IMG/VR virus record: IMGVR_UViG_3300047481_000377
Coordinates: 1 to 26,068 of that record
Length of the DNA: 26,068 nt
Source: a virus
Reading direction: 5' to 3' (one strand)
Below are positions 4,334 to 7,076 of the stretch, one piece after another. The notes under the pieces were generated by a model, which was not told the DNA's origin, did no database searches, and saw nothing but the letters and a program-made list of their open reading frames with translations. The translations under genes were made by a program, and so were the position numbers. The stretch's first letter is position 1. Each line of letters starts with the position of its first letter.

Positions 4334-7076
4334 AAAGTATTTGGGCAACTCCAACCTGAAAGCGGCTGGAGTCAATATCAACTTCTCTGAAAAGCAGATT
4401 GAAGAGTATGTAAAGTGCTCTCAAGACCCGCTGTATTTCATCAAGAATTATGTAAAGATTGTGTCATTGGACAAGGGCTTGGTTCCGTTTCATCCGTATG
4501 AGTTTCAGGAAGACATGATCCAAGCGGTGCATAAGAACCGTTTTGTGATTTGCAAAATGCCTCGACAGAGCGGCAAATCCACCACAATGGTGTCATTCTT
4601 GCTACACTATATCTTGTTTAATCAGAACATGAGTATAGCCATTCTAGCCAACAAACTGGCTACAGCCCGTGAACTGCTTGGTCGTCTCAAACTAGCATAC
4701 GAATACCTTCCCATATGGTTGCAGCAGGGTGTGGTGGAGTGGAACAAGGGGTCTATTGTATTAGAAAACGGTTCCAAAGTGCTTGCAGCGGCTACTTCGT
4801 CGTCTGCGGTTCGTGGTGGTTCATTTAACTGTATAAGTGGAGATTCTGTCATTACCCTGCGAGATTCTACTACTGGAACTATTTTTGATATTAGTATTGA
4901 AAATCTGTTCGCAGACTCGTCTAAAAATAATAAATATGTTTATGCAAATGATAAACAACAAATACAAGAAGTGGTATTTTTTGATGATGGAGAATGCAAA
5001 GAACAGGAGTCTAGACGAGTCTTTCTTCACCGAAATCCACCACATAATTCCACAGTCTTTGGGTGGAACAAACGAACACTCCAACTTGGTGAAATTGACA
5101 GTCAAAGAACATCTACTGGCTCACAAACTCTTGACCAAATTTTTATCGGGAATAGAAAAATCCAAAATGGTTCATGCCCATTTTCGTATGGTGACTGGTC
5201 GTCAAGGGCAAATGGTTCACTTAACAGAGCAGCAAAAGAAAATGGTTATGATTCAGTATTCAGAGGCAAGAAGAATTATGAGAACAGGAACAAAACACAC
5301 AGAAGAAACAAAACTGAAGATGTCAAAATCCAGCAAGGGAAGGAAACTATCAGAGAAGGCAAAGAGCCTTATATCTGCTGCAAATCGTGGTCGGTTTCTT
5401 GGAATAAAAAGAAGTCAAGAATTTTGTCAGAAAATATCTTCTGCACTAACAGGGAAACCAAAAACGAAAGACCATTCAGACAAGATAAACAAAAATCCAG
5501 ACAAGATACGAAAAACAGCAGAGAAGCATCGTGGAATGAAACGAAGCGAGGAAGCAAAAAAGAAAATGAGCGATTCAGCAAAAGCACGAATAGCAAGACA
5601 GGGTGGTGCTTGGAATCGGGGAATGAAACTTATAGATGGGAAGTACTTACATCAAGAGGTTTCCGACCATTCAAAGGAATAATCAAAACATATTCACAAG
5701 ACACTATTACTGTAAATCTGCCCGATAGAAAAATAGTCTGTACTCCAGACCACAAGATATGCGTTGATGGTTTTGGTTTTGTTGCTGCTGCTTCTTTATC
5801 TGCTGGGCATCTTGTGGTTTGTGAGAATTGCATTCTTCCTGTTGTTTCTGTTGAGAACAGTAGTAAAACAGATGTGTATGATTTATTGGATGTGCAAGAG
5901 ACTCATGCGTTTTATGCAAATGGAATAGAAGTTCACAATTGCATAATGCTTGATGAATTTGCCTATGTTCCACAGAATGTGGCTGAAGAATTCTTCTCGT
6001 CCGTGTATCCCACAATTACAAGTGGTAAAGAAACCAAAGTGATTATTGTGTCTACTCCCAAAGGCTTAAACATGTTCTACCGCCTGTGGGTCAATGCCAA
6101 CAAGCGACCCGGCGAAGAAGGCAAGAACGAGTACTACCCCATAGAGGTGCACTGGAGCGATGTGCCCGGTCGTGATGAGGAGTGGAAAAAGCAAACCATC
6201 TCCAACACAAGTGAAGAGCAGTTCAGGACGGAATTTGAAACAGAGTTCTTGGGTTCAGTTCACACCCTGATACATCCTGAAAAACTTAAATGCCTTGTGT
6301 ACCGCACCCCTGAATATTTCAATAGTGAAGGCTTGCGTGTGTACGCCAAACCACAACCCGAGCACAAGTACGTGCTTGTGGTGGACACCTCTCGTGGCGT
6401 GGGGCAGGACTACCATGCGTTCACAGTAGTGGACGTTACACAGATACCGTATCGACTAGCCGCCACATTCCGCAACAACCAATTGGCTCCCATGTTGTAC
6501 CCCAACGCCATTTACCCTGTGGCTAGGCAGTACAACAACGCGTATGTACTGGTGGAAATCAACGATATTGGACAACAGGTAGCAGACATTCTTCACGATG
6601 AAATGGAATACGACAACATCATCTATGTGCAGATGCAGGGACGCAAAGGACAAGTAGTGAACGGCGGCTTCGGCAAGGGAGGCTCGGCTATGAAAGGCGT
6701 AAAGACTTCCACAGCCGTGAAGCGTATAGGGTGTTCTATTCTGAAAAACCTGATTGAAGACACCAAATTGGTGGTTGAGGACTTTGGTGTGGTGGACGAG
6801 TTGTGTACTTTTGTGGCTCGTGGAGACTCGTTTGAAGCCGAAGACAACCACAACGACGATTTGGTGATGACGTTGGTGTTGTTCTCGTGGCTAACCACCC
6901 AAGCGTATTTTAAAGACATCACAGGCAGCGACATCCGAAAAGACCTGTACGAAGACCAAATGAAAAATTTGGAAGAGGAAATGACCCCTTTTGGCTTCGT
7001 GGACGACGGAAACGATCCAAACACATTCACAGACACTAACGGATTGACTTGGAATTGGGGCGACGAGCGGGGCTAA
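4320..7076 (+). CDS. gp17: gp17, large terminase subunit (TerL), intein-containing precursor
   Basis: A 918-codon precursor that becomes a 548-residue terminase after removal of a 370-residue intein (codons 171-540). gp17 is the ATP-driven packaging motor and headful nuclease. The ATPase domain has Walker A PRQSGKST (81-88); Walker B is [11 protein letters not shown] (from 541) immediately after the intein, and IIVSTPKG fits the coupling motif. The RNase H-fold nuclease domain has Asp689 (VVDTSRG), Glu746 (VEIND) and Asp846/Asp847 (HNDDLVM), consistent with the catalytic acidic triad. The start is GTG 4320, overlapping the previous gene by 14 nt. Without splicing the ATPase core would be split between adenine-loop region and Walker B, so splicing should be needed for packaging. 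The HNH gene nested in another frame is described separately. Confidence 0.95.
4830..5939 (+). other. Intein in gp17, inserted just before Walker B
   Basis: The extein junctions are [11 protein letters not shown] and [10 protein letters not shown]. Block A is [20 protein letters not shown] with nucleophile Cys1; block B is TPDHKICV (Thr305, His308 in intein numbering); blocks F/G are [20 protein letters not shown] then His369-Asn370, with Cys+1. All residues for standard class 1 splicing are present. The insertion point is a conserved active-site motif, typical of inteins. Between about residues 36 and 270 the gp17 frame shows no intein motif, no methionine and no recognisable domain: this stretch is the shadow of the HNH gene in the +1 frame. 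Without it, about 35 N-terminal and 100 C-terminal residues remain, the size of a mini-intein. The interruption is between blocks A and B, not between B and F where LAGLIDADG domains usually sit. Confidence 0.93.
4948..5682 (+). CDS. HNH homing endonuclease with NUMOD3-type repeats, nested out of frame in the gp17 intein
   Basis: In the +1 frame relative to gp17, this 244-residue protein has a clear HNH domain: His31-His32 ([12 protein letters not shown]), Asn46 (HSNLVKLT) and His55/His59 ([10 protein letters not shown]), preceded by the usual [14 protein letters not shown] helix. Residues about 105-225 carry repeated helix-turn-helix-like units ([45 protein letters not shown]) of NUMOD3 type, a DNA-binding element of homing endonucleases. 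It probably nicks or cuts intein-free gp17 alleles so that the intein spreads. Starts at 4936, 4942 and 4948 are possible; none has a good ribosome binding site, so the route of translation is unclear. The final 10-15 codons overlap real intein sequence. The gene is visibly more A-rich than the flanking terminase sequence, fitting lateral arrival. Confidence 0.85.

Follow-up and report, generated by a model that had tools for sequence, protein, structure and literature searches.

An HNH endonuclease gene nested out of frame within a contiguous phage terminase intein

How can a single stretch of DNA be read as the middle of an intein in one frame, and as the gene for a homing endonuclease in another? 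The question is posed by gp17, the terminase large subunit (TerL) gene, in IMG/VR virus record IMGVR_UViG_3300047481_000377, of which a stretch of 26,068 bases (hereafter, the window) was analysed computationally. The nearest matches of this terminase are those of T4-like cyanophages. Inteins with nucleases usually are described as fused to them in frame, or as split around a free gene. A first-pass annotation of the window proposed a third arrangement, an independent out-of-frame nuclease in an intein that is still contiguous, and this proposal now is supported by 30 stop-free alleles and by purifying selection on the nuclease frame but not on the intein-frame reading of the same stretch.

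It is very probable, in our judgment, that a contiguous, cis-splicing terminase intein carries the homing endonuclease as an independent overlapping gene, with the HNH protein made from an internal start. Ribosomes would read gp17 straight through. The excised intein would consist of a Hint domain, formed by the first ~31 and last ~104 residues, linked by a disordered loop of ~235 residues; this loop would be no more than the HNH gene read in the wrong frame, with openness as the one feature retained. Internal initiation would supply the HNH as a protein of its own: ten alleles, the window among them, have a late-promoter-like box from which +1 would fall on an HNH ATG to yield a leaderless message, and in several others the start may be reached through a Shine-Dalgarno-like sequence. 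The HNH would then cut intein-less terminase alleles, into which the element would be copied. We consider it likely that this represents a third stable architecture for mobile inteins: a contiguous intein houses the endonuclease as an overlapping, separately expressed gene (leaderless and late in some alleles), and the linker is the nuclease's shadow, selected only to lack stops.

One stretch, two open frames

The gp17 frame extends on the plus strand from 4320 to 7076, encoding 918 amino acids without a stop. Within it lies a complete intein (4830-5939; 370 codons, CISGDS...EVHN/C, the slash marking the junction), removal of which would leave 548 terminase residues; the unbroken frame and its coordinates both hold as first described. 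The N-extein (4320-4829; codons 1-170, with a GTG start) matches Pfam Terminase_6N and PHROG 5989, and is followed by the N-part of the intein with block A (4830-4934), 35 codons ahead of the HNH start. The C-part (5634-5939) contains blocks B (TPDHKI), F, and G, recognized through alignments and through TIGR01445 and TIGR01443 matches that lie partly below cut-off. The C-extein (5940-7076), placed by Pfam, PHROG, and empty-site relatives, begins with Cys+1 just ahead of a motif that we take to be Walker B.

The +1 frame contains a full HNH-NUMOD3 homing endonuclease gene (4936-5682, plus strand), as had been claimed: from ATG 4936, or alternatively 4942 or 4948, to the TAA stop at 5680-5682, for a protein of 248, 246, or 244 amino acids, respectively, with matches to NUMOD3 and PHROG 655. 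The first 16 codons of the intein C-part overlap the 3' end of this gene. The HNH gene read in the gp17 frame (4935-5633) is here termed the shadow: 233 codons, predicted disordered, with neither ATG nor stop, close to the approximately 235 codons originally estimated. (Indeed, the gp17 frame of the entire window intein contains no ATG, and the start-like codons of the shadow are one GTG and two TTG.)

It is very unlikely that the two frames are an artefact of sequencing: a second contig (46,660 bases) is identical to the window over 6,625 bases, and a diverged allele, L059 (79.9% nucleotide identity), has the same two open frames with unchanged lengths. The identical second assembly and the relatives also exclude compensating indels near 4930 and 5640, which would place the HNH in frame with the intein.

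The nuclease matches Pfam NUMOD3 over three stretches (E-value 3.5e-8) and the homing endonuclease family PHROG 655 (4e-34); the Pfam HNH match is at 20.5 bits, with a curated cut-off of 21.4. Residues E33, H35, H36, and H59, some of which we take to be catalytic, are invariant and N50 nearly invariant among 32 sequences (the Asn is invariant in a 15-sequence alignment). The AlphaFold2 model has a mean predicted local distance difference test (pLDDT) score of 85, and Foldseek found no solved structure matching it below E 0.001. By its sequence features, the protein is an HNH-NUMOD3 homing endonuclease, predicted to cleave the empty allele.

Class 1 inteins are marked by Cys1, a T..H in block B, a terminal Asn, and Cys+1. 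Residues C1, T305, and H308 are invariant across 31 aligned inteins, and the window junction is HN/C. Intein models match weakly: TIGR01445 reaches 21.4 of 24.5 bits and Pfam Intein_splicing 19.5 of 35.8, and TIGR01443 exceeds its cut-off only in whole gp17 (19.2 versus 15.6). The usual endonuclease site in inteins is between blocks B and F. Here, TIGR01445 matches only in its later half (model positions 49-82, at intein residues 279-311); therefore, the nuclease falls between splicing blocks A and B of the intein, where atypically split inteins are broken. In the AlphaFold2 model of the intein, residues 1-30 and 271-370 have block pLDDT of 87-97 (the N-part is well predicted through residue 31), and residues 32-258 fall below 50. 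This suggests that both intein ends fold into one splicing (Hint) domain around a disordered shadow. Foldseek ranks the VidaL intein best (E 1.1e-8), with gp41-1 at 1.5e-8; profile comparison ranks the Cat intein best, along with gp41-1 and others, and VidaL lower (1.1e-5). On sequence features and predicted Hint fold this is a class 1 intein, which presumably splices.

Stop avoidance and selection

A scan with the C-intein, in which the nuclease was not used as query, returned 39 loci. Among 21 entries examined at this site (including L059 and L058, the window's copy), 16 have the HNH at +1 to both intein parts together with a stop-free gp17 frame, an arrangement here called nested; one of the 16 (L078) is partial. 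The remaining five are HNH-less (two, of which L071 keeps a stub) or split (L081, L083, L084). Further scans and classification of 251 loci produced 31 distinct nested alleles in which the HNH match spans more than 200 residues. Thus, the comparison with related terminase inteins in viral contigs, which the first-pass annotation had proposed, reveals the nested layout in 30 distinct alleles at the same TerL site (26 clusters at 95% identity) and in one, L081, at a second TerL site, where a Walker A intein forms a 438-codon insertion without a stop and carries a diverged HNH. (The intein lies at L081:877-2190, with junctions GK/C...HN/S; its out-of-frame HNH open reading frame (ORF) is at 974-1870, +1, and the gp17 frame has no stop.) Four partial nested loci (L078, L115, L209, L218) are outside the count of 31. 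L234 and L238 have nested-like frame offsets by chance; they contain 59 and 49 stops, respectively, and are split.

The gp17 frame of the window contains no stop over 248 HNH codons versus 16.0 expected, and 0/2000 synonymous shuffles are stop-free. Fifteen alleles taken singly behave alike: 0 stops each versus 11.9-20.2 expected, and 0/2000 stop-free shuffles each; their third frame contains 12-31 stops. Across all 31 nested alleles there are 0 stops in 6,992 codons, with shuffle means of 10.0-20.3 per allele and a minimum of 3. In 47 non-nested loci (53 minus six left out, near copies kept), the corresponding frame of the whole ORF contains 9-81 stops, the highest values including the fused gp17 part. 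A further 61 distinct non-nested relatives contain at least 9 stops (median 21), and matched segments of 68 non-nested rows contain at least 6, the 6 falling over 64 codons. A third-base T that would create a gp17 stop is found at none of 1,630 codons in nested alleles, versus 296/632 codons of the same class in 11 free-standing HNHs and 263/588 in 9 split-intein HNHs.

Drift between pairs of alleles was also simulated. For the window and L059, a mean of 5.6 stops is expected, and 1/400 runs was stop-free; for L069 and L110, 3/400 were. (For the close pairs L110/L112 and L076/L077, stop-free in 47/400 and 65/400 runs, the simulation is not decisive.) Free relatives have median stop counts of 21 in the frame used in nested alleles and 12 in the other. 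The nested alleles use the stop-richer frame, which argues for history, not ease.

The ratio of nonsynonymous to synonymous differences (pN/pS) was calculated for 122 pairs from 30 alleles with nucleotide identity of 0.60-0.995. The median is 0.36 in the HNH frame (below 1 in 122/122 pairs) and 1.38 in the shadow frame (below 1 in 1/122). The C-intein outside the HNH has a median of 0.52, below 1 in 63/63 pairs. By this pattern, the nuclease and the splicing domain appear to be kept as proteins and the shadow only as an open frame: because the HNH frame and the C-intein are under purifying selection and the shadow is not, only its openness seems to be maintained.

Relatives and empty sites

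Among classified C-intein loci, 35 are nested, counting partials and L081. In 24 the endonuclease shares an ORF with the N-part, in 10 it is separate, and in 3 the N-part is not in view; 2 HNH-less loci were added. The non-nested figures are a recount by ORF, replacing labels by frame only, which moved L083, L131, and L250 to the separate class. In a C-intein tree (71 rows, 103 columns, weak backbone; L243 and L013 dropped for a stop in the C-intein, and the Walker A intein of L081 omitted), the nested state requires 5 changes versus 23.9 in shuffles. The main nested clade (support 84) has 36 rows: 33 nested, 2 HNH-less, and 1 not nested. Nested L203 lies outside this clade.

In eight split loci inspected, an ATG lies at most 81 bases before the C-intein. 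In L191 (2153-3607) and L192 (1421-2875), the HNH is in frame with the N-part and is followed by one stop, an ATG, and the C-intein in the same frame; this is a minimal split intein. L070 (3375-3806) is a natural mini-intein: relative to L110, L112, and L116 it has lost 684 bases in frame, including most of the HNH, and has kept the intein, which suggests that the shadow is dispensable. Of 10 loci examined for empty sites, 9 (L165-L171, L173, L174) have no insert and match the joined terminase at 84-95% identity; some of them are near copies, and two are truncated at a contig end.

Expression of the nuclease

In 30/30 alleles, an ATG lies at most 7 codons ahead of the conserved NKY motif. The window contains a predicted T4-late-promoter-like box, AATAAATA (4929-4936, plus strand), for which +1 would fall on ATG 4942. 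Such sequences, recognized by the letters of the T4 late-promoter consensus, occur within 27 bases upstream of the HNH start in 13/30 alleles versus 52/5,973 background windows. The box of T4 late promoters is counted from −13 relative to +1 (PMC2988020). The NATAAATA spacing puts +1 on the A of an ATG in 10 of the 13 boxed alleles, the window included; L068, L205, and L206 contain the box at other spacings. The Shine-Dalgarno-like sequence is clearest in L177 (AAAGGAGAAGAACATG). Start signals vary among alleles; leaderless late transcription is thus a good hypothesis for some members of the family and not an established rule.

Shortly before the HNH start, many nested alleles appear by eye to share a AAYTCRTCTARA-like stretch, which reads NSS(R/K) in the gp17 frame; in the window it is GACTCGTCTAAA (4914-4925).

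Weighing the alternatives

Several points count against an overlapping, independently expressed gene in a cis-splicing intein. We infer splicing, HNH translation, promoter use, cleavage, and homing. The nested alleles are related (clade support 84, 103 columns), and therefore are not independent origins. Naive pN/pS is biased in overlaps and the pairs share alleles, though the contrast between HNH and shadow is plain. The last intein residue is Asn in 25/29 nested inteins and Gln in the other four. Only 10/13 boxes have the +1 spacing, and four of these ten are 95-98% identical; L004, the nearest relative, has neither box nor Shine-Dalgarno-like sequence; and across the whole window NATAAATA is no commoner than chance (4 versus 2.3). 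Shine-Dalgarno sequences of at least 4 bases accompany 11/30 starts, taking the best of the candidate starts per allele, versus 52/321 internal ATGs, a weak excess on which they were rejected as the general start signal. A gp17-frame ATG occurs in the 50 codons before the C-intein in 7/29 nested alleles; in those seven the C-half could conceivably be translated separately, which is unnecessary where the frame is open. In addition, the nested form was not seen with four intein queries against 50,697 phage records (7, 21, 20, and 16 records, all with less than 80% of the query covered). None of nine phage-record regions opened was seen to be nested, four judged by ORF listing and five by annotation only; annotation around the match has two ORFs in kaaroe, 1.244.A, VP-1, and K469, and one ORF in vB_VmeM-32. 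An HNH-only query matched 1,033 phage records, examined in the HNH reading, and a genome-contig scan with the HNH alignment matched 99 stretches, none confirmed.

One competitor is a disguised split intein, in which the C-part is started separately (in the window from TTG 5610 or an upstream GTG) and gp17 is assembled by trans-splicing. Relatives indeed are split, with the nearby ATG in eight loci described above; the window TTG sits 8 codons before the C-intein; and the 50 codons preceding the C-intein contain a gp17-frame ATG in seven of 29 nested alleles and some start-like codon in 28/29. Trans-splicing does not require an open gp17 frame, yet that frame is stop-free in all 31 nested alleles. 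Moreover, the window shadow has no ATG, and its late TTG results from HNH residues WN, so we regard separate synthesis of the C-part as unlikely. A programmed +1 frameshift, which would produce a gp17N-intein-N-HNH fusion, draws on the HNH frame of the window being open upstream to 4837. It seems very unlikely: an HNH-frame stop directly ahead of the start codon in 4/30 alleles (L108, L201, and the near-identical L205 and L206) leaves no room for a shift from gp17 that could supply the HNH in those alleles, and the ATG close before NKY is universal among the 30.

Two further explanations would make the open gp17 frame irrelevant or accidental. NUMOD3-HNH proteins are common in group I introns, and the HNH region could be such an intron inside the intein, removed from the message. 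Yet an intron would need no stop-free gp17 frame, which persists through 6,992 codons; once the HNH ORF and its C-intein overlap are accounted for, hardly any space is left for a ribozyme; and the window plus 15 nested loci have no Rfam match at gathering thresholds, the below-threshold matches at E≤10 including none to an intron. An intron thus is exceedingly unlikely. As for chance, codon usage alone could in principle leave few stops in that frame of a gene rich in lysine and in A. Nothing was found in favour of this, and it has a negligible probability given at least 9 stops in the non-nested relatives (47 plus 61 further distinct loci) and no stop-free shuffle among 2000 for each of 15 alleles.

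Known systems

A contiguous intein with an overlapping nuclease gene invites comparison with several known systems. The closest precedents are the ShiLan domain and the Pacc40 gp60 insertion, out-of-frame HNH genes in phage DNA methylases whose host frame is without stops; the authors report no intein or intron there and propose leaderless initiation (PMC11855218). As at gp17, the HNH is out of frame in a phage gene, and the host reading is stop-free with a poorly predicted structure. The ShiLan cases are from mycobacteriophages, with a GTG start and no detectable ribosome binding site, whereas the gp17 shadow is the linker of a recognizable intein, with stop avoidance and selection measured over 30 alleles. 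The gp17 element was therefore not assigned to the ShiLan type, a hidden HNH without a splicing element: its splicing domain is present. An out-of-frame, stop-free HNH insertion in a phage gene is already in print, but not in an intein (PMC11855218). A search of open-licence PubMed Central papers turned up no account of a contiguous intein with an out-of-frame endonuclease.

Canonical large inteins likewise join a splicing domain and a homing endonuclease in one element, at a conserved motif of an essential gene. Unlike them, the gp17 intein encodes its nuclease in a different frame and from a separate start, at a position between blocks A and B, and the excised intein would lack the nuclease; in all 30 alleles at this site the HNH is at offset +1, so these are not canonical fused-endonuclease inteins. 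The atypically split inteins VidaL (6vgv), Cat (6dsl), and AceL-TerL, the last reportedly split at such a position, share with gp17 a break after a short N-part and before block B; the HNH start follows codon 35. In fold comparison the gp17 intein is closest to VidaL, in profile comparison to Cat. Such inteins with short N-parts are known (PMC10189870, PMC7891396), and AceL-TerL, also a terminase intein, is named in the latter. Unlike these inteins, and unlike fractured genes with a free endonuclease, the two gp17 parts share one frame (0 stops in 31 nested alleles) and probably are not translated as separate halves, and the endonuclease overlaps the intein rather than interrupting it.

Terminase inteins of Campylobacter phages IBB_35 and CP21 (L060 and L061; PMC3322345) likewise combine the same short N-part with an endonuclease that lies between blocks A and B, and one of them is, by eye, at apparently the same extein site as the gp17 intein. 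Unlike gp17, they are split: the endonuclease either occupies a separate ORF between the two halves or continues the N-part frame up to a stop. The IBB_35 paper labels part of the terminase interruption an intron (PMC3322345). By eye, L060 (2552-4249) contains both intein parts, with the HNH in frame with the N-part, and L061 (798-2794) contains the same intein without the HNH.

The gp17 case, in which the same DNA apparently serves as linker and as gene, is maintained through deep divergence. If the interpretation is correct, it provides a natural gauge of intein tolerance for a random loop of 235 residues, and would account for a nuclease that is at once free and tied to an essential gene. 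The overlap would also protect the parasite, because a frameshift that destroyed the nuclease would disable the essential terminase as well. The graded series of nested, fused, split, and HNH-less forms is material for learning how split inteins arise, and would make their origin traceable. It also serves as a warning: annotation of one frame overlooks homing endonucleases.

Other boxes in the window

Three other ATAAATA boxes, a motif no more frequent here than chance predicts, occur in the window, all on the plus strand (3642-3648, 9193-9199, and 11582-11588). They precede genes at 3667, 9224, and 11875, the last 287 bases away, and possibly are late promoters.

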